This document shows positions 2,897-22,869 of a stretch of DNA of 34,134 bases, in pieces. The translations under genes were made by a program, and so were the position numbers. Origin of the DNA: Planctomycetota bacterium (lineage in GTDB: Bacteria > Planctomycetota > Brocadiia > SM23-32); the NCBI GenBank assembly GCA_030628375.1, contig DAOVRD010000005.1, positions 1 through 34,134 on the forward strand, given 5' to 3'. Numbering within the stretch: the stretch's first letter is position 1; each line of letters begins with the position of its first letter. The notes under the pieces are model-generated. The model ran no database searches and was not told where the DNA came from. It worked only from the letters and a program-made list of their open reading frames with translations.

Positions 2897-4517
2897 GGGA
2901 CGCCCCGTCGGGAACCGGTTCGGCGTTCAACTCCGCTTCTGCAATCAACCTATTGTAGAATTCCTCGCCGCCCAGCGCCACGCTCCAGGGCAGCAGCGCC
3001 CCGCGCGAGTCGAAGTAGTCCAGGTCGCGCACCTGGTAGTCGGTTGCAATCTGCCGGACCAGCTTGTCGGTCAGCTCGGTCTGAAGGGCTTTGATTTCCC
3101 TCCACAGGGTCCGGATCTCCGGTCCTTTCGGGTCCGTCCGGGCCAACTGGCGGCGTCGGCTGTCCAGCGCCTCGATTGCCCGGGCGGTCTCGGGGCAGTT
3201 ATCGTGCTGCCAGCGCTGCCGAGCCTGCGGGTCCTTGAATGCTTCGAGGCGGTCGGTCGCTTCCCTGGCCAGCGCCGCGTAGTTCTCGCCCAGCACACTG
3301 GCGGGCACGGTGTCGCGGCCAAAGGCTGCGGCCACGTGCGGCGGCAAACGGACGGCCGTGTCCAGTTCCCGGAGCCTGTCCAGGAAGTGAAACCGGATGC
3401 GCACCACCGGGTGGAGTCCGGCGGGCAGCAGGTTCTGCTCGGCAAGCTTCTGCGCCAACCGGTCGGCGGCCGGCATGTAGGGCGAACCCCGATAGGGAAG
3501 CACCAGCGGACCGCCCTGCGTGCCCAGTCTCACCTGGATGACGAGCACTACGGCCTTGCCGGCCAGACACCGCACGCCGGCGCGCGCCATTTCGTCCAGC
3601 GGCAGGCGGCCGTCAGTTGTGCGCCGGAATGCCATGTCCTGCACCTGAATCTGGTCCCCGCGCAGGAACGTGCCCGTCCGCACCGCGTGGCCTTCGTGCT
3701 CCAGAACGGCGAAGAAGGGCAGCTCGCCGTCCGAGATCTTCAGCCGCCGGAGGCCGCAGTCGGCCTCCTCGACGGCTTCGTTGTACAGCGTTGCTGCCAG
3801 TTCGTAGTCCCTGACGAAGACGTCCAGAATCTCCGTCCCCGGAGCGCCGCTCCGGCAGGCGAACAGCGAGAAGGTCAGACCAATCTCGATGTGCTCGTCC
3901 GCATAGAGGCCCAGCCAGTCCTTGCAGACCTCCACGAGCCTGCCCCGCGCGTGGCGGCGCAGCATCTCTTCCACACGCCCCGTCTCGCGGCCAAACCACT
4001 CCTTCAATCGCCGCTGCGAGGCCGCTTCAGGGAACCGTTCCAGCATGTCCGCCATCGCCAGGGCGAGCGTCTGCCGCACGAACTCGGCCGTCTCTGCCAC
4101 CGTGAGGTCGGCGATCACGCGATGGTGTTGCCGGCTGCCGGCATAACTCGGGCCGACGAGCTGCCAGTTCTCACTGGGGGAGAACTCCTCGTAGAGGTCG
4201 TCAACGCTCCGGCCGAGTTGCCGGGCCAGGACACTAGTTCTCACGCCGGTCAGCGGCTCCCATTGACGCACCTCGACGGGCAACCGGCCCAGGAACTTGG
4301 AGTAGAACAGCGCCGCACCCCAGTCCGACCCGCCGCTGCGGTGGAACCGCTCCGGCGCCAGGCGAAGCTGGCCCGAGTTGATGCCCGAACCCAGCGACGT
4401 GAAGGCGACGTCAACGTCCTCGATGTAATGGCGCACGCTGCATCCGCGCAGGGCCAGGGCCTGGAGCTTGGGCACAGTATCCCAGAGGCTGTGGCAGTTC
4501 TGGTCTATGCTGAGCAT
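2889..4517 (-). CDS. Uncharacterised conserved-looking protein (~542 aa)
   Basis: Long ORF; likely start MLSIDQNCHSLWDT at 4517 overlaps the dapF stop (GTGCAATGCTCAGCATAG); no family recognised. Confidence 0.7.
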   Translation of the reverse strand: MLSIDQNCHSLWDTVPKLQALALRGCSVRHYIEDVDVAFTSLGSGINSGQLRLAPERFHRSGGSDWGAALFYSKFLGRLPVEVRQWEPLTGVRTSVLARQLGRSVDDLYEEFSPSENWQLVGPSYAGSRQHHRVIADLTVAETAEFVRQTLALAMADMLERFPEAASQRRLKEWFGRETGRVEEMLRRHARGRLVEVCKDWLGLYADEHIEIGLTFSLFACRSGAPGTEILDVFVRDYELAATLYNEAVEEADCGLRRLKISDGELPFFAVLEHEGHAVRTGTFLRGDQIQVQDMAFRRTTDGRLPLDEMARAGVRCLAGKAVVLVIQVRLGTQGGPLVLPYRGSPYMPAADRLAQKLAEQNLLPAGLHPVVRIRFHFLDRLRELDTAVRLPPHVAAAFGRDTVPASVLGENYAALAREATDRLEAFKDPQARQRWQHDNCPETARAIEALDSRRRQLARTDPKGPEIRTLWREIKALQTELTDKLVRQIATDYQVRDLDYFDSRGALLPWSVALGGEEFYNRLIAEAELNAEPVPDGASRD

Positions 4518-5455
4518 TGCACGCCCGACAGAGCGCACTTGCAGGTCTCGCACCGGGCAGCCGGGGCCAGCGCGCGCTCCGCCAAGTCGAGATGGATCCG
4601 GCCGTAGTAGGAGAACCGGACGACGGTCTCCAGACACAGGTCGTCGTAGGTGCCGTCATTCCTTTGCTCGACGTACACCCTGAGGACGTCGCCGCTGCGG
4701 GCACGGACCAGGACCGGATGCTCGCCGGAACGGAAGCGCTCCGACCAGCCGAATCGCCTGAGGCACAGAACGGCTGCGGCTGCCGAGCCGGTGCCGCACG
4801 ACAGCGTTTCCCCCTCCACACCGAACTCGAAGGTCCGAATGGCGATTTCGCCTTCCGCAATCACCTGCACGAAGTTCGCGTTGGCCCCTCTCGGCTGGAA
4901 CTGCTCGTGGTTCCTCAGCGCTCGTCCGTACCGCAGCACGTCGGTCTTACCCAGGTCTTCGACATAGGTGACAACGTGAGGGACGCCCGTGACAGCAAAA
5001 TCGCACCTGAAGCGAGCATCCTCGGCCTCCAAGACCAGGTCGGATTGGATGTCCTCCGGCAAGGGAATGCAAACGCGCACGTAACTCCCGTCCGCGTTTC
5101 TCCCCCGGATAACGCCGGCGGACGTCAGCACCTTCACTTCCCTATCGGCGATCCAGCCGTTGGCGACCACCCAGCGGACGAAACAGGCCGTCCCGTTGCC
5201 ACAAAGCTCCGCCTCCGAGCCGTCCGGCTCGAAGAAGCGTGCACCGATGTCGCTCACGCCGTCCAGTTCCGGCCGGCAGGCGAACATGACGCCGTCGGCG
5301 CCGATCGCCAGGCGGCGACGGCACAGCGAACGGACCAGCCGCCCGATCCGGCCGGGATGGGAGATGGTCTTGTCGAACCGGCCGTCCCTGTTATCAATGC
5401 AAATGAAATCGTTGCCGCTGCCACAGAGCTTGGCAAACTCGATGGGTTCAGTCAT
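4505..5455 (-). CDS. dapF: Diaminopimelate epimerase
   Basis: MTEPIEFAKLCGSGNDFICIDN...ELCGNGTACFVRW...ETLSCGTGSAAAAV: both catalytic Cys motifs present. Confidence 0.93.
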   Translation of the reverse strand: MTEPIEFAKLCGSGNDFICIDNRDGRFDKTISHPGRIGRLVRSLCRRRLAIGADGVMFACRPELDGVSDIGARFFEPDGSEAELCGNGTACFVRWVVANGWIADREVKVLTSAGVIRGRNADGSYVRVCIPLPEDIQSDLVLEAEDARFRCDFAVTGVPHVVTYVEDLGKTDVLRYGRALRNHEQFQPRGANANFVQVIAEGEIAIRTFEFGVEGETLSCGTGSAAAAVLCLRRFGWSERFRSGEHPVLVRARSGDVLRVYVEQRNDGTYDDLCLETVVRFSYYGRIHLDLAERALAPAARCETCKCALSGVQCSA

Positions 5456-5769
5456 GGTCTGCTCCGTCGGGTCTGCGGGATGGCCCGCTGGTTGCAGGGT
5501 AACGCTGCCTCGGACGCCGGCAGCACGGGCAGGAGACCCCCTGGCGCGGTGAAGACCTCTGCAACAAGTAACTCGGCCCTGCGCCTCAACAGGGGCGCGA
5601 AGCGACGATGATACCATAACCTCGCAGGTTGGTCCACCGGAAGGGCCGCAGCCACGCCGGCAGTTGGCCTTCTCGCACCGAATCCGCAAGTTCTAGAATC
5701 GGCGCCCCTCAGTGTGCCATCTGCGCAGGCGGGAAAGGCCCTGAGGGAGCGAAACACGGTTCTTGGTGA

Positions 5770-5819
5770 GTTGGCTTCCCGGCCTGGACTCGAACCAGGA
5801 ATGGCAGGACCAAAACCTG
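5770..5819 (-). repeat. Truncated tRNA-Gln 3' fragment (putative distal attachment-site copy)
   Basis: 50 bp identical to 7306-7355, i.e. anticodon stem-loop to the CCA end of the intact tRNA-Gln; no 5' half present. Confidence 0.85.
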
Positions 5820-6222
5820 GGCCTGCCCCCGCCGCCCCTGGCAGGTGCCGCGTTGCTACGTCCTGCGTAACGCAAGCGACAAAAGAGACTTGCGCCCTGC
5901 GCCGAAGCGACTCTTTCATGGGCAGCACAACGGGGCGGGTGCGGGAATAGGTGCCGATATCGGCGAATAAGAGCGGTTGGTGCAACCAGTTGCAACCAGC
6001 AGAGCTGACCTGGGTAACGAAAACGCCAGATTACCCAGATGCGGGATGCTGTTCTGTCGCGACTTTCCTTCTCCCGACGTGCGCGGCTTGGTAGTCGCCT
6101 GGCGCAAGCCCAGCCGCAGTCTCCCCTTGTGATCGCTTGTCTCAGGCCGAACATGGGTGACGACCTGGAAGCCGGCACACAGCCATAATCCCCACGAAGT
6201 CGGATCTGTGGAGGCTGTTGGC

Positions 6223-6468
6223 TCAGGCGTCTCTGAATTCCTTGTCCGACACGCCATCGGCGGGAAGAAGCTTGAACCTCCTCCGTGCCTTCCGCACGTA
6301 GAGATTATCTACCCCTCCTCCGGCTTCAACTGCAACGTAGATAACCACTTGGGCGCCGATCCGCTTGCGCATTTTGATGTGCGTAGGCTTGCGTTTGCTG
6401 CGGGAGAGCTTCACACCATAAGCCCGGAATTTTCGCTCGAAATCATGAACGGGCAGGGGGCCGGGCAA
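6223..6468 (-). CDS. Small HicA-like protein (putative toxin), TTG start
   Basis: 81 aa; KPTHIKM...YVRKARRRFKLLPADGVSDKEF resembles HicA-type dsRBD-fold proteins with a conserved His; 2 nt downstream of the HicB-like ORF. Confidence 0.5.
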   Translation of the reverse strand: MPGPLPVHDFERKFRAYGVKLSRSKRKPTHIKMRKRIGAQVVIYVAVEAGGGVDNLYVRKARRRFKLLPADGVSDKEFRDA

Positions 6469-6470
6469 AA

Positions 6471-6893
6471 CTAACCCCCGACCGGGGCCAGGCGAAAAGC
6501 ACGAACACTGTCACGCACGGGGCGCAACTCCCTGATATTCCGGAAGCGGTAGGGCGCAGTTGGCGGCTCTTCGGTCTCAGCCAATACGGCGATAACCAGA
6601 TACTCTTCTTTCCTGCGTGCGCGTTCCCACTCATCGGGCTCCGACGGGTTAAAGAAGTTGACGTCCTCCGCTGTGTTGAGAATCTCCGTCAGATAGGTGT
6701 CGACAACGCCCTGCAGCTCAGTGAACGCCTTGCGCTGAGTGGAGCCAATGCCGACCAAATCGAATTCAAGCGCCGTGCAGACCCAATGGCTGGCAGTTCG
6801 GCGATATCCCACCGTGACTGGTCCGCTCAGTGTAGATATTACAAAGTCTCGTGCCACTACCTGGACTCCCTTCCTTCCTTTCCCACAAAACAT
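6471..6893 (-). CDS. HicB-like protein (putative antitoxin)
   Basis: WVCTALEFDLVGIGSTQRKAFTELQGVVDTYL resembles the HicB fold; possible alternative GTG start at 6857 preceded by GGGAG. Confidence 0.5.
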   Translation of the reverse strand: MFCGKGRKGVQVVARDFVISTLSGPVTVGYRRTASHWVCTALEFDLVGIGSTQRKAFTELQGVVDTYLTEILNTAEDVNFFNPSEPDEWERARRKEEYLVIAVLAETEEPPTAPYRFRNIRELRPVRDSVRAFRLAPVGG

Positions 6894-7109
6894 AATCTAC
6901 CAAAAATGTCAAGCCCGAAACACAAGATTTCCGAGAAGAGACCACCCTCAACGACCAGGGCAAACAGCGTGCCGCACCTGCCATTCTAGTTAGTGGCCCT
7001 CGTGGGCCTGCCTTGCCTTATCCGGTGGCGTGACTCGACGCAAGTATAGCCATACGTGGTGCATTTTTCAACGGTGCGCAAACACCCCGGGGCCGCAACC
7101 CCAAGGGGG

Positions 7110-7134
7110 CCGGGCAACCCGACAGGTTGCCCGG
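7110..7134. repeat. Perfect 10-bp inverted repeat CCGGGCAACC-cgaca-GGTTGCCCGG
   Basis: Read directly; lies between the HicB-like gene and tRNA-Gln. Confidence 0.75.
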
Positions 7135-7307
7135 GATGAAGTCTGCGCCCGTCCCGCCGGGCCGTTGCGCGGGGGGAGGGTTTCATGAAGGGGCTCTGCT
7201 TTCGGCATCCTACTCTGGTCGTGCCGCCATAGCTGGCCTGGCCGGGCGTCGCTGAGCGCAACGGGAGGCGAATCGTCCTATCGGCCCCCTGCCCAGAACG
7301 ATGAGGT

Positions 7308-7382
7308 TGGCTTCCCGGCCTGGACTCGAACCAGGAATGGCAGGACCAAAACCTGCTGTGTTACCAATTACACCACCGGGAA
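7308..7382 (-). tRNA. tRNA-Gln (anticodon UUG), CCA encoded
   Basis: TTCCCGG-TG-GTGT-AATTGGTA-ACAC-A-GCAGG-TTTTGGT-CCTGC-CATT-CCTGG-TTCGAGT-CCAGG-CCGGGAA-G-CCA: all four stems pair; TTG anticodon. Confidence 0.95.
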
Positions 7383-7472: not shown

Positions 7473-8570
7473 TCAGATGCGGCCCCCGCCGCCCGCCTGC
7501 GCGGTCTCGGTCTCCCTGTGGAGCCAATCCCACCGCTGCAGGGACACGAAGGAATCGCCCTCGAGGACGTACTCGCCCCGCTCCTCTCCGACTATCGTGG
7601 CAAGCGACGTGTGCTCGTAGACCGCGCCGACCAGGATTTCTCCCTTCTTCCGGCCCCTGCCATCAGGCGTGAGGGTGTAGACGACCAGCCGGTCGCTCTG
7701 CGACATGCCCCTGTCCTTGCCGCCTTGGATAAGGACGAAACGATAGTCGCTCCGCACCTCGATGACTTTGCCCTCAGGGACGAGTTTGTCCGCCTCACCG
7801 GGCCCGCGAACCAGTTCCGCATAGCGTTTCTGGAGCGCAGCCAGTTGGTCCTGGAGTTGGACTACGTCCCTCTTGCGCTCGTTGACTTCCTGCTGGTATT
7901 TCGCGCGCCAGTCCACTGCTTCCTGCCGCTGTCGGTCGTGGCGCGTCTGCAGATCGTTGTTCACGGTGCGCTGCTCGGACAGGTCCCTCTCGAATTTCTC
8001 CGTGGCATCTGTGAGCTGACGCTGGAGGCGCTGTTCGGTCTCCGCCAGCGACTTCTTGGCTTCATCCAGGCGCTGGGCCAGATCGTCGTTGCGGGTCTCC
8101 AGCCCCGCGATGTCCGCCAGGAACTGGATGTAGCTGTCCTCATAGGACTTCAGCAGAGGGCGCAGCATATGAAAGGTGGCCTCTCCTTCCTCCTCGGCCT
8201 TCTTCTGCACGGGGGACTCGGCCAGGGCGCTCCGCATTCCTTCCAGGCTTTCCCAGCCCAGGAAAGGCAACGCCTCCTTCTCATACTCGGCCGCCACTGC
8301 CAGCTTCGCTTTCACGTCGGTGTAGCTTTCCTGGGTGTACTTGACGCCCAACTCCGTGGGGCTCTGCTCGGAAAGGTGCCAGCCGTTGGCGGCGAACTCC
8401 CTGCCAACGATGTCGGAGAAAACCAGTTGGTCGGTATCAATGGCCTCCTTGTGCATGCGGAACTGCTGATAGAAAAAGAGGGCGGAACCGATGCCCACGA
8501 AGGCCAAGACCACAAAAATGACCAGCGCCACCACGACTCCCGAACCTGAACTTCGTCTCACGGCGGCCAT
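7473..8570 (-). CDS. Hypothetical membrane-anchored coiled-coil protein with C-terminal beta-rich domain
   Basis: MAAVRRSSGSGVVVALVIFVVLAFVGIGSALFFYQQF (TM), long Gln/Glu/Arg heptads, then VPEGKVIEVRSDYRFVLIQGGKDRGMSQSDRLVVYT. Confidence 0.75.
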   Translation of the reverse strand: MAAVRRSSGSGVVVALVIFVVLAFVGIGSALFFYQQFRMHKEAIDTDQLVFSDIVGREFAANGWHLSEQSPTELGVKYTQESYTDVKAKLAVAAEYEKEALPFLGWESLEGMRSALAESPVQKKAEEEGEATFHMLRPLLKSYEDSYIQFLADIAGLETRNDDLAQRLDEAKKSLAETEQRLQRQLTDATEKFERDLSEQRTVNNDLQTRHDRQRQEAVDWRAKYQQEVNERKRDVVQLQDQLAALQKRYAELVRGPGEADKLVPEGKVIEVRSDYRFVLIQGGKDRGMSQSDRLVVYTLTPDGRGRKKGEILVGAVYEHTSLATIVGEERGEYVLEGDSFVSLQRWDWLHRETETAQAGGGGRI

Positions 8571-8901
8571 GTCTATCTCCCCTGTGCTTCCAGCGAAGCG
8601 GTTTGCCGGCCGCGGCCTCCGCTCCCTGTGCCCGCACGCCGGGCCGGGATCGTCGCCGCTGCTGCCGATTTGCCCATATAAAGTTATACGCAAGGGAAGC
8701 CGTTGTCAACTCGCAAACACCTAATCTTTTGCCAGGAACCGCCGTGCCGCAGCCGCAGAGACTCCGCGCGCCGCATCTTAAACCAGAGGAAGCCCGCTCC
8801 AGGTGCGGTTGACAGTGGCAGAGCCGACCGTGAGAATAGGCGGCGGAGCCAGCCCTCTGGCGCTGCCGGCAAGCCCGTTACCCTCACCGCACGAACCGCA
8901 C

Positions 8902-11166
8902 ATGACGCAAGGTAGTCAGACAGACACCCCGGCCGACCGGGTCGCCTCCGTGGCCCTCAACCTGCCCCTGGACAGGACTTTCGACTACCTGGTGCCCCAG
9001 AGCCTGCGAGGCCAGGTGGTGGTCGGGGGACGGGTGCGCGTGCCGTTCGGCAAGCGCCTCCAGGTGCTGGGCTACTGCGTCGGACTCAAAGCAAGCTCCG
9101 AAGTGCCCGAAGCGGGCCTGAAGGCCATAAGCCGCTCGCTCGACAAGGAGCCCGTGTTCACGCCCCTCATGCTGAAACTGGCGCGCTGGATGGCGCAGTA
9201 TTACCGCTGCTCGCTGGGGGAGGCGCTCCACGCGGCGCTGCCTTCGGCAGTGCGTAAGGGCAGGGAAAGACGCAAGGTCCGGTTCGCCTGCCTGCGACTG
9301 CCGGGTGAGGAAGCCGAACGCATAGCCGACGAAATATTCGACAAGAGCCCCGCCCAGAGCAAGATACTCCGCACGCTGGCGCTCATGGGCGGCGAAGCGC
9401 CTGCGGCCGAACTGAAGAAGGCCACTGCCACTTCGCAACCGTCTCTGAATGCCCTGGAGAAGCGCGGCTATCTGAAGTCCGAAATGCGCCTGGTGGAATC
9501 CGAGGACCCGCTCCCCCACCCGCCGACATCCCCTCAGCAGCCACCCAGACTCACGCCCGAGCAGCACAGGGCCTACGACGTCATCACCGAGGGGATGAGT
9601 CGCGGGCGGTTCGACGTCGTGCTCCTGCACGGCATTACGTCCAGCGGCAAGACGGAGGTGTACTTGCAGTGCATCGCCGAGCTGCTGCGCCTGGGCAAAC
9701 AGGCCATCGTGCTGGTGCCCGAGATCAGCCTCACTCCGCAGACGGTGCGGCATTTCGGCAGCCGGTTCGCCAGGCTGGCCGTCCTGCACAGCCGCCTGAC
9801 CGAAGCGGAGCGCCTGCGCCAGTGGCACCGCATCCGCAGCGGCGAGGCCGACGTCGTGGTCGGCGCGCGCTCGGCAATCTTCGCCCCGGTGCCCGCCCTG
9901 GGGCTCCTGGTGATTGATGAAGAACACGAGAACAGCTTCAAGCAGGACACGGTGCCGCGCTACCACGCCAGGGACGTGGGCATAATGCGCGCTCGCTTCG
10001 ACGACGCACTGGTCGTGCTCGGCTCGGCGACGCCTTCTCTGGAAAGCTACCACAACTACCAGGTGGGCAAATACACAAGGGTGATGCTGACGTCCCGCAT
10101 CGGCGGCCACCCACTGCCCCCGGTGGAGGTGGTCAACATGAGCGAGGAATGGGCCGGCCGCGGGCGGCTTCGGGTGATCAGCCGGCGACTGGAGTCCCGG
10201 ATGCGCGAGAGCCTGGAGCGCGGGGAGCAGGTCATTCTGTTCATCAACAGGCGCGGCTTCTCGACCTTCATTCACTGCCCGCGCTGCGGATACGCGCTGA
10301 AATGCCTGCGCTGCGACATCACGTTGAACTATCACCAGAAGATCAACGCTCTGGTCTGCCACTACTGCGGGTTCGAGCGGAGGCCGCCGTCCTCGTGCCC
10401 CGAGTGCGGCCTGGAGCAGATGCACTTCAGCGGCACCGGCACCGAGCGCGTCGAGGCGGCGGTGCGAGAGCTGTTCCCCGAACGCACGGCCACCCGAATG
10501 GACAGCGATACCACCAAGGCCCGCCAGGCACACCGGGACAAGCTCGAAGCATTCCGAACCGGGCGCGCCGACATCCTCATCGGCACGCAGATGATCGCCA
10601 AGGGGTTGGACTTCCCCAACGTGACAACGGTGGGAGTCGTCAACGCCGACGTGGCGCTGCACCTGCCGGACTTCCGCTCCCGGGAACGCACGTTCCAACT
10701 GCTGGCGCAGGTGGCGGGCCGCACCGGCCGGGGCCCCGCGGGCGGTCGGGTGATCGTCCAGACCTTCATGGCGCAAGACCCCAGCATCCAGGCGGCGGCG
10801 CATCACGACTACGAGGCGTTTGCACGACACGAACTCCCCCTGCGCCGGGAACTGCGCTACCCGCCTTACGGACGCATGGTGCGCATCATCTGCAGGGGAC
10901 GAAAGGCGGAGGCCGTCGAGCAGTTCGCCAGCAGCCTTGGCACGGCCCTGCGCAGATTGTGCGAGCAACTGGGCGACGGCGCCCAGGTGCTGGGCCCCGC
11001 GCCCGCGCCCATTTCCCAGATCAGAGGACGGCATCGCCGCCACCTGCTGATCAAGTGCCCGAATTCCCGATCGGTCGCAGACCTTATGCAGGACGCGGCC
11101 GGAATGCTCAAGGGCCCGGCCAGCGTGAAGGTGGTGGTGGACGTGGACCCGCAGTCAATGCTTTGA
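8902..11166 (+). CDS. priA: Primosomal protein N' (replication restart helicase)
   Basis: LHGITSSGKTEVY (Walker A), VIDEEHE, zinc-binding CPRCGYALKCLRCD...CHYCG...CPECG, GTQMIAKGLDFPNVTTVGVVNAD, QVAGRTGRG. Confidence 0.96.
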   Translation: MTQGSQTDTPADRVASVALNLPLDRTFDYLVPQSLRGQVVVGGRVRVPFGKRLQVLGYCVGLKASSEVPEAGLKAISRSLDKEPVFTPLMLKLARWMAQYYRCSLGEALHAALPSAVRKGRERRKVRFACLRLPGEEAERIADEIFDKSPAQSKILRTLALMGGEAPAAELKKATATSQPSLNALEKRGYLKSEMRLVESEDPLPHPPTSPQQPPRLTPEQHRAYDVITEGMSRGRFDVVLLHGITSSGKTEVYLQCIAELLRLGKQAIVLVPEISLTPQTVRHFGSRFARLAVLHSRLTEAERLRQWHRIRSGEADVVVGARSAIFAPVPALGLLVIDEEHENSFKQDTVPRYHARDVGIMRARFDDALVVLGSATPSLESYHNYQVGKYTRVMLTSRIGGHPLPPVEVVNMSEEWAGRGRLRVISRRLESRMRESLERGEQVILFINRRGFSTFIHCPRCGYALKCLRCDITLNYHQKINALVCHYCGFERRPPSSCPECGLEQMHFSGTGTERVEAAVRELFPERTATRMDSDTTKARQAHRDKLEAFRTGRADILIGTQMIAKGLDFPNVTTVGVVNADVALHLPDFRSRERTFQLLAQVAGRTGRGPAGGRVIVQTFMAQDPSIQAAAHHDYEAFARHELPLRRELRYPPYGRMVRIICRGRKAEAVEQFASSLGTALRRLCEQLGDGAQVLGPAPAPISQIRGRHRRHLLIKCPNSRSVADLMQDAAGMLKGPASVKVVVDVDPQSML

Positions 11167-20073: not shown

Positions 20074-22869
20074 TCACGCGCGAGACGAGGCCGGCTTCCG
20101 GGCGACCACGCGCCGGTACAACTGCCCGGCCGCCAGCGGCATCAGCGCGCAAGCGCCGATGACGAGCCAGTCCACGGCGGCCGGCGGCGAGGTCCTCATG
20201 ACCGTCTTGAGCCCCGGCATGTAGACGGCCGCGAGCTGCAAGCCCACCGTCAGAACCAAGGCCCCCAGCACGTAAGGGTTGCTGAACCACTCCCTGCCGC
20301 GCAGCGGCCCGCGCTCCTTGCGCGAGTTGAACACGTGGAAAAGCTGCGCCAACCCTATCGTCAGGAAGCTCATCGTGATGGCGGGATCCACCCGCCCGAC
20401 GGGCTGGTAGCCGCGCACGAATCGCCCGTAGAAGAAAGCCGTCAGCGCCGCCAGCGTGATCAACAGACCGTAGCCGACGATCGAGCCCACGGTGCGCCTG
20501 TCCAGCAGCGAGGACTCCGGCGGCCGGGGCGGCCTGTCCATGATATCGGCCTCCCCGCGCTCCAGCGCCAGCGCCAGGGCGGGGAACACGTCGGTCACCA
20601 TGTTCAGCCACAGTATCTGGAGCGGCAGCAGGGGCAGCGGCTCGCCCAGCATGGTGGCGAACAGCATGGTGGCCACCTCGCTGAGATTGCAGCTAAACAG
20701 GTAGTGGACGAACTTCTTAATGTTGGCATAGATGATTCGGCCCTGATGCACGGCGGCACCGACGGTCACGAAGCGGTCGTCCAGGAGCAGCATGTCGGCG
20801 GTTTCCTTGGCCACGTCCGTCCCCTTGATGCCCATCGCCACGCCGATGTCAGCCCTCTTCAGGGCGATGGCATCGTTGACCCCGTCTCCGAGCATGGCGC
20901 ATATCTCGCCGCGCCTCTGCAGCGCCTCCAGCACGTCCACCTTCTGCTCGGGACTGACGCGCGCAAAGACCTGCACTTCCTCAAGCCTGGCGGCCAGCTC
21001 GTCCCGGCTCAACGCTGCCAGATCGCGCCCGGTCAGGACCTGCGGTTCCGTCGGAGCGATGTGCAATTCGGCTGCAATGCGGGCGGCAGTGGCCGGGTGG
21101 TCGCCCGTTATCATCACGGTCTTCACCCCGGCACGGGTCAGCATGTCCACGGTCTGCCGCACCCCCTCCCTGGGCGGATCCACCAGGCCGGCCAGGCCCA
21201 GCCAGGTCAGTCCCGAGTATGCCTCCTCCGGGCCGGCCGGCGCCCGCCCCACTGGCTTGAAGGCCACGCCGAGCACCCGCAGGCCGCCGGCCGCCAGCGA
21301 CCGGCTCTCCTCCAGGGCACGCTCGCGCTCCGCCTGCGTCAGGTCGCGAAGGCCGGCCGTGGTGAGAACGGAAGAGCATCGCTCGGCCACCGCCTCCGGG
21401 GAGCCCTTGACGCACAGCACCACGCCCTGCCCCGGGTTCATCTGTTCATCCAGACCGTCGTTCACGGTCGCCATCATCATGGTGGTGCTGGAGAAGGCGA
21501 ACTCCTTCAGCTCGGGGTGTCGCCGGCGCAGTTCGTCCGGCGCCCAGCCGGCCTTCGTCGCAGCCACGGCGAGGGCGACCTCGGTCGGGTCTCCGGTCAC
21601 CTCCGGATCTCCCTCGCCACGGGACAGGACCGTGGCATTGTTGCAGAGCACGGCTACCTTCAACAGGCCGCGAAGCTGCCGGTCCCCGGCGGGCTCGACC
21701 TGGCGACCGTTCTCCGTGAACCGCCCCGCCACGGCGTAGCCAATCCCCGAGACGTGCACGGTGCGCTCCCACACCCGTATCCTGGTGACCGTCATCTCGT
21801 TGCGCGTCAGCGTGCCCGTCTTGTCCGTGCAGATGCAGGTGGCGGAGCCCAGCGTCTCCACGGCGGGAAGGCGCCGTATCAGGGCGTTCTGCTTGGCCAT
21901 CCGCCACATGCCCACGGCCAGTGTGATCGTTGCCACGGCGGGCAGCCCTTCCGGCACGGCGGCGACCGCCAGCGCGATGGCGGCCTCCAGCATCAGGCCG
22001 ACCGGCACGCCCTGGATTATGCCGGCTACGGCCACGACCGCCGCAACGGCGAGGCACAGGACGACCAGCCGGCGCCCGATGTCGGCCAGGCGCCTCTCGA
22101 TGGGCGTCTCCACCTCGGGGGTCTCGCTCACGAGCTTGCTGATGTGCCCGATCTCCGTGGCCATACCGGTAGCGATCACCAGGGTCACCCCGTTGCCGCT
22201 GGTCGCGTGAGTGCCCTTGAAAACCATGTTGCGGCGCTCGGCCAGCGGCGTGTCTTCATCGTCCAAGGGGTCCGTGCCCTTCGCCACAGGGACGGACTCC
22301 CCCGTGAGCGGCGCCTCGTCCACCTGCAGCTCCGCCGATTCCACAACCCGCGCATCGGCGCAGACCGACTGGCCCTCCTGGAGGATCACAACGTCACCCG
22401 GGACCAGGTCCGTCGCAGGAACGGCGAGGCGCGTGCCGGACCGGAGCACCAACGCATCCTGCGCGCCCAGTTTCTGCAGGGCCTCCATGGCGCGGCTGGC
22501 GCGGTACTCGGTCGCGAATCCGATCCCGGCGTTCAGCAGGATCACCACCACAACGCTGAGCGCCTCGAGGTTGTCACCCAGGAAGAAGCAGATGACGGCG
22601 GCAACGACGAGCAGCAGCACCACCAGGCTCTTGAACTGAGCCGCGAGCACCCGCCACCAGGGGACCGCCCGCGAACGGCGAAGCTGGTTCGGACCGTACC
22701 TGCTCAGCCTGCGGCCGGCCTCGCGCGCACTCAGCCCCCGGGATACGACCGCTGCGAGGAGTCCGGCCACTTCCCCGGTCGGCATCGCGTGCCAGGGGCG
22801 CTTGAGCTGCGGCCACAGGCCCGACTGCTGTCTGCCGCCGGTCTCTTCCGCTGACGTGTTGCCAGACAA
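20074..22869 (-). CDS. Cation-translocating P-type ATPase, Ca2+-type
   Basis: CTDKTGTLTRNEMT, VPEGLPAVATITLAVG, TGES, MLGDGVNDAIALKRADIGVAMG, LWLNMVTDVFPALALALE. Confidence 0.95.
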   Translation of the reverse strand: MSGNTSAEETGGRQQSGLWPQLKRPWHAMPTGEVAGLLAAVVSRGLSAREAGRRLSRYGPNQLRRSRAVPWWRVLAAQFKSLVVLLLVVAAVICFFLGDNLEALSVVVVILLNAGIGFATEYRASRAMEALQKLGAQDALVLRSGTRLAVPATDLVPGDVVILQEGQSVCADARVVESAELQVDEAPLTGESVPVAKGTDPLDDEDTPLAERRNMVFKGTHATSGNGVTLVIATGMATEIGHISKLVSETPEVETPIERRLADIGRRLVVLCLAVAAVVAVAGIIQGVPVGLMLEAAIALAVAAVPEGLPAVATITLAVGMWRMAKQNALIRRLPAVETLGSATCICTDKTGTLTRNEMTVTRIRVWERTVHVSGIGYAVAGRFTENGRQVEPAGDRQLRGLLKVAVLCNNATVLSRGEGDPEVTGDPTEVALAVAATKAGWAPDELRRRHPELKEFAFSSTTMMMATVNDGLDEQMNPGQGVVLCVKGSPEAVAERCSSVLTTAGLRDLTQAERERALEESRSLAAGGLRVLGVAFKPVGRAPAGPEEAYSGLTWLGLAGLVDPPREGVRQTVDMLTRAGVKTVMITGDHPATAARIAAELHIAPTEPQVLTGRDLAALSRDELAARLEEVQVFARVSPEQKVDVLEALQRRGEICAMLGDGVNDAIALKRADIGVAMGIKGTDVAKETADMLLLDDRFVTVGAAVHQGRIIYANIKKFVHYLFSCNLSEVATMLFATMLGEPLPLLPLQILWLNMVTDVFPALALALERGEADIMDRPPRPPESSLLDRRTVGSIVGYGLLITLAALTAFFYGRFVRGYQPVGRVDPAITMSFLTIGLAQLFHVFNSRKERGPLRGREWFSNPYVLGALVLTVGLQLAAVYMPGLKTVMRTSPPAAVDWLVIGACALMPLAAGQLYRRVVARKPASSRA

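Follow-up and report, generated by a model that had tools for sequence, protein, structure and literature searches.

A recombinase-less islet at a planctomycete tRNA-Gln gene with a probable HicBA-like toxin–antitoxin operon

In the window (the whole stretch of DNA analyzed, a single contig of 34 kb), a 1486-bp islet at positions 5820–7305 lies between two identical direct repeats that derive from a tRNA-Gln gene. The islet holds no detectable recombinase gene, is foreign-like in composition, and carries a two-gene operon that probably encodes a HicBA-like toxin–antitoxin pair. The reading that we favor, with moderate confidence, is that it is an integrase-less element seated in the 3′ half of tRNA-Gln and flanked by putative att sites, most likely what is left of a larger island (a solitary structure resembling a cis-mobilizable element, or CIME) that has kept its toxin–antitoxin pair.

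Repeats, recombinases, and flanking genes

The original prediction described two identical 50-bp copies spaced 1536 bp apart, the right one part of an intact tRNA-Gln gene and the left one comprising the 3′ half only, and all of this was borne out. Repeat search places the copies, 100% identical over 50 nucleotides, at 5770–5819 and 7306–7355 on the minus strand. The right copy falls within a single intact tRNA-Gln with anticodon TTG (7308–7382, minus strand), which both ARAGORN and Rfam (RF00005, 59 bits) recognize and which would represent the regenerated target gene. The left copy, at the far end of the islet, drew no tRNA call from either program and corresponds to tRNA-Gln nucleotides 28–75 plus two downstream bases. 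Beyond the repeat edges, identity drops abruptly to 6 of 27 positions on the 5′ side (in the tRNA sense) and 9 of 40 on the 3′ side; the two places are unrelated outside the repeat, and thus the left copy represents a 3′ half with clean ends and not the decayed form of a second tRNA. The original prediction named a tRNA 5′ half next to position 5819 as the mark of tandem tRNA decay. Comparison of the flanks revealed no such remnant beside the left copy, by which that history is ruled out. In the whole genome assembly, these two places are the only long matches to tRNA-Gln, and chance does not produce an exact match of 50 bp whose end is set by a tRNA.

Could two genome regions simply have been misjoined at the repeat? 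The source assembly is fragmented (412 contigs, 85.8% complete), and a 50-bp repeat can mislead short k-mers. However, both repeats lie inside the 34-kb contig, with flanks that are alike in composition, and the same anatomy is seen in independent assemblies of sister genera, as described below. We regard an assembly artefact of this kind as extremely improbable.

The predicted lack of a recombinase gene between the repeats also held, as neither the open reading frames nor searches with Pfam and other profiles yielded an integrase or recombinase there, and a PF00589 profile search of the genome gave no match on the window contig. Nor were remains of deleted island genes found between the repeats. 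The host genome as a whole has nine PF00589 matches, several of them beside tRNA-Ser, tRNA-Leu, and tRNA-Arg genes, so that a recombinase is available in trans; none of the recombinases in the host genome is tied to tRNA-Gln.

Two further sites in the host genome were recorded during this work. A displaced 5′ part of tRNA-Leu(CAA), nucleotides 1–39 (L115, G000:C288, 1718–1756), and an intact tRNA-Leu(CAA) that has an integrase gene 5′ of it (L262, G000:C35, 1195–1283) are possibly the two ends of one 5′-type island. At the other site (L265, G000:C184, 2438–3203), fragments of tRNA-Lys and tRNA-Arg flank a partial integrase match, probably a decayed integration site.

Outside the islet lie the diaminopimelate epimerase gene dapF on one side (4505–5689, minus strand; Pfam PF01678) and a gene for a coiled-coil protein on the other (7473–8693, minus strand). 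The coiled-coil gene has a counterpart in seven of eight further family genomes, always beside tRNA-Gln(TTG); in relatives, dapF sits on other contigs. The DNA 3′ of tRNA-Gln differs in all relatives compared, with the coiled-coil linkage kept. No sequence is common to the window islet and the relatives' loci, no relative was found to carry a full element with the same ends, and no empty tRNA-Gln site turned up in the eight other genomes. A scan of genome contigs for closer relatives found no genome of the same genus.

The original prediction read the polarity as that produced by tyrosine-recombinase integration. That interpretation is partly supported: it gains from the polarity, the sharp boundary in the anticodon arm, the lack of a 5′-half remnant, the foreign-like composition, and the fact that sister genera show this anatomy again at other tRNAs, whereas neither an empty site nor an excised circle was found. 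A different origin, in which illegitimate recombination or replication slippage duplicated a segment of tRNA-Gln and caught the operon by chance, would involve no site-specific recombinase at all, and both the missing recombinase and the missing empty site agree with it. But integration would predict ends at the anticodon arm and the tRNA 3′ end, the correct orientation of the copies, and further cases at other tRNAs, all of which are seen, and the left copy has no adjoining 5′-half remnant. Thus, duplication seems quite improbable.

Cargo of the islet

The islet holds a two-gene operon of low GC3 on the minus strand that had escaped the original prediction. Its two small genes are the only open reading frames with support between the repeats and the most telling part of the islet. 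The first gene (6471–6893, 140 aa) probably encodes a HicB-like antitoxin; the second (6223–6468, 81 aa), which follows directly, is tentatively assigned as a HicA-like toxin from alignment with its counterparts. A candidate sigma-70-like promoter, a consensus match only (10 of 12 positions), lies upstream of the HicB-like gene at 7043–7071 on the minus strand.

The HicB-like protein weakly matches HicB-type proteins from four genomes within the same class or phylum (G022, G032, G063, and G115), and W37, L42–E43, G48, and G50 are kept in the alignment. The relative in G032 (L015) adjoins a HicA recognized by Pfam. Those in G063 and G115 adjoin small open reading frames whose products align with that of 6223–6468, and one histidine and, at the C terminus, a motif around DGVxDxxF are common to the three sequences. 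Profile libraries, Pfam among them, gave no match at cut-off for either islet protein, the AlphaFold models are poor (mean pLDDT 70 and 40), and a single fold search with the HicA-like product returned nothing significant. Since there is no profile match and structure prediction was unhelpful, HicBA-like is a probable name for the pair, one drawn from sequence comparison. The HicB-like protein had no match in plasmids and phages.

The composition of the islet sets it apart from its surroundings. Its GC content is 0.60 versus 0.646 in the rest of the window, at about the 3rd percentile of the window, and GC3 is ∼0.64 in both operon genes (0.64 in the HicB-like gene) versus 0.80–0.85 in three neighboring genes. 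Both the low GC3 and the low overall GC fit what is expected of acquired DNA.

Similar islets at other tRNA genes

We scanned ∼180 tRNA genes, mainly those of seven family genomes (G000, G002–G006, and G008), for displaced tRNA pieces. Exact displaced repeats of at least 38 bp with both ends on one contig were found three times, the window included. One of the others, an islet of 2.4 kb at tRNA-Thr(CGT) on G005:C171, is of the 3′ type, with a 46-bp repeat that runs from nucleotide 35 to beyond the 3′ end; it encodes a DUF3368 PIN protein and a helix-turn-helix/IrrE protein whose end is UPF0175-like. The second, an islet of 1.4 kb at tRNA-Arg(CCT) on G003:C43, is of the 5′ type, with nucleotides 2–39 (38 bp) displaced on the 5′ side, and carries UPF0175 and DUF3368 proteins. 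No recombinase was present among the listed open reading frames of either. All three islets, 1.4–2.4 kb in size, contain a toxin–antitoxin pair, a probable one in the case of the window, with three different modules at three different tRNAs in three different genera. Each junction maps to the anticodon stem-loop or its edge, the pattern left by tyrosine recombinases on integration. The three share no sequence, and the polarity is 5′ in one and 3′ in two. Across nine family genomes there are only four DUF3368 matches, two of which fall within the G005 and G003 islets; the probability of such placement by chance is ∼1e-7 to 1e-6, a value computed after the pattern had been seen and to be taken as a guide only.

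The pattern is claimed for the family only, as there is no excess of tRNA at DUF3368 loci across the phylum. At 29 such loci, no intact tRNA was found within ∼1.5 kb, and at 20 larger ones, solitary tRNA fragments were no denser than at other loci, counts that do not support a general association of DUF3368 pairs with tRNA genes. Two solitary fragments were noted in G029, 2–5 kb from DUF3368 genes: a tRNA-Met 3′ half beginning at the anticodon loop (L315, 7519–7565) and a sequence resembling the 3′ end of tmRNA (L316, 4210–4330). Fragments of this type occur no more densely than at other loci.

How might a 1.5-kb islet of this kind arise? In the course that we favor, in which the islet is a stub, a tyrosine recombinase encoded outside it would have recombined a circular element with tRNA-Gln at a site within or close to the anticodon arm. 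The 3′ half borne by the element would have restored tRNA-Gln, and the original 3′ half would have been displaced to 5770–5819. Subsequently, the other genes of the larger island may have been deleted, with the toxin–antitoxin pair selecting against complete loss of the stub, which, if the toxin is active, could be retained through addiction. What is left today would then be the two ends and the HicBA-like operon. Several points count against this course: no empty site, no genome of the same genus, no excised circle, no recombinase tied to tRNA-Gln, no traces of deleted genes, a HicA-like alignment of three sequences, and, at DUF3368 loci outside the family, no excess of tRNA fragments.

An alternative is that the islet never had an integrase of its own and is a minimal mobile element, made up of one tRNA end and a toxin–antitoxin pair and moved in trans by the recombinases that resident islands supply, that is, a satellite with addiction as its sole cargo. 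Three islets of 1.4–2.4 kb built on one plan from different modules, at different tRNAs and in different genera, would accord with such a satellite, as would the 50-bp ends, which are still identical and so look like usable att sites. On the other hand, the islets have no shared sequence and hence no visible common carrier, their polarity is mixed (one 5′ and two 3′), and deletion remnants would look no different. We judge a satellite origin unlikely. The broader proposal, that a dedicated class of minimal islets, each consisting only of a tRNA end and a toxin–antitoxin pair, spreads among the tRNA genes of this family through recombinases acting in trans and has been overlooked by island finders, is in our estimation unlikely.

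A locus in another family bears on the choice between these histories. In L307 (G258:C84, ∼7985–8977), a UPF0175/DUF3368 pair is separated by ∼170 bp from a displaced 3′ half of tRNA-Gln that begins at the anticodon loop. At a distance of 14.4 kb, the same strand carries a tRNA with no assigned isotype (22401–22472), and the genes between these ends include resolvase-, replication-, and SIR2-like genes, named by eye from their translations. The locus is possibly a larger counterpart, an island of ∼14 kb, and as such slightly favors a history of shrinking over a satellite.

Known systems and tRNA-adjacent nuclease genes

Among described elements, the islet is best filed near the CIMEs, known for example from Streptococcus, which are flanked by att sites, lack recombination and transfer genes, classically span 1.2–13 kb, and are abundant at tRNA-Lys in S. 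agalactiae (PMC7563491, PMC5704250). Like them, the islet has att-like repeats at both ends, no recombination, conjugation, or mobilization genes, and a size within the CIME range. It differs in being solitary, with no functional element in tandem, and in having a toxin–antitoxin pair as its only cargo. We do not claim membership, which presupposes descent by deletion from an integrative and conjugative or mobilizable element (ICE/IME) and the capacity for mobilization in cis once an element accretes at one att site. A comparison can also be drawn with the islands cataloged by Islander, in which anticodon-type sites account for about half of the mapped tRNA islands and which requires an integrase inside and a length of 2–200 kb (PMC4383910). 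As in those islands, an intact tRNA is accompanied by a correctly oriented, displaced 3′ fragment at an anticodon-type site, but the islet has no integrase and measures 1536 bp between repeat starts, and so it passes neither filter. A parallel in target is PYG1 of the archaeon Pyrococcus yayanosii, which is likewise bounded by a partial and a complete tRNA-Gln(TTG) with direct repeats, there of 44 bp, but is an island of 21.4 kb (PMC9897764). Compared with HicAB systems, the islet has the same two-gene operon layout, and its HicB-like protein has a relative in G032 whose neighbor is a HicA by Pfam, but its antitoxin-like gene comes first, its toxin-like reading frame is divergent, and neither product reaches the Pfam cut-off.

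That a toxin–antitoxin pair can stabilize a tRNA-integrated island is already known from HipAB and the 48-kb tRNA-Trp island of Shewanella putrefaciens, which has an integrase and tested excision (PMC8978831), and the novelty here is accordingly modest. The likeness is a toxin–antitoxin pair on a tRNA-integrated element; stabilization is experimental there, whereas for our islet it is a reading of the gene content. What stands out is the unusual recurrence of toxin–antitoxin-only content in tRNA-bounded islets. Elements without an integrase or shorter than 2 kb are discarded by a standard island finder and go uncounted. The three islets suggest that toxin–antitoxin modules may be what persists as tRNA-integrated islands decay or, alternatively, that they travel as minimal satellites. 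Under either history, a genome scan run without both filters could test whether it is addiction that determines the part of an island left to survive.

A final class of tRNA-adjacent genes deserves mention. Stand-alone small GIY-YIG nuclease genes in the host genome lie, in four of four cases, directly 3′ of a tRNA gene on the same strand (tRNA-Pro, tRNA-Met, tRNA-Asn, and tRNA-Glu; L072, L073, L074, and L075 on G000:C102, C138, C371, and C389). Two more occur in G002 at tRNA-Pro (L079 and L080) and one in G006 at tRNA-Gln, as in the window (L016, G006:C244), with distances of 26–260 bp over the seven loci in three genomes. GIY-YIG loci sampled from other families had no tRNA, and we found no description of such an association in bacterial chromosomes in the open-licence literature. 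Such genes suggest another route to the islet, in which a small tRNA-adjacent GIY-YIG nuclease cleaved the tRNA gene and break repair then copied in a fragment homologous to the tRNA. This is consistent with the spacing of these genes from tRNAs in three genomes and with the presence of one at the same tRNA-Gln in G006, where a 20-bp repeat of the tRNA 3′ end is found. However, the window islet contains no GIY-YIG gene or remnant, and the repeats at GIY-YIG islets are short or diverged versus the exact 38–50 bp of the toxin–antitoxin islets. We therefore hold break repair to be very improbable as the origin of the islet, which we continue to read as the stub of an integrated island.

In their own right, the GIY-YIG loci may constitute a homing-type tRNA islet. 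Repeats of the tRNA 3′ end at these loci measure 20 bp in G006, 16–20 bp on G002:C216, and a diverged 46 bp on G000:C389. On G000:C138 (L130, 5153–6224), an intact tRNA-Met is followed by four copies of its last 15–16 nucleotides within 1 kb, around the GIY-YIG gene. On G000:C102 (L072, 301–1117), three successive tRNA-Pro(TGG) calls fall in near-identical repeats of 137–150 bp, and the GIY-YIG gene lies between the first and second of them in transcription order.
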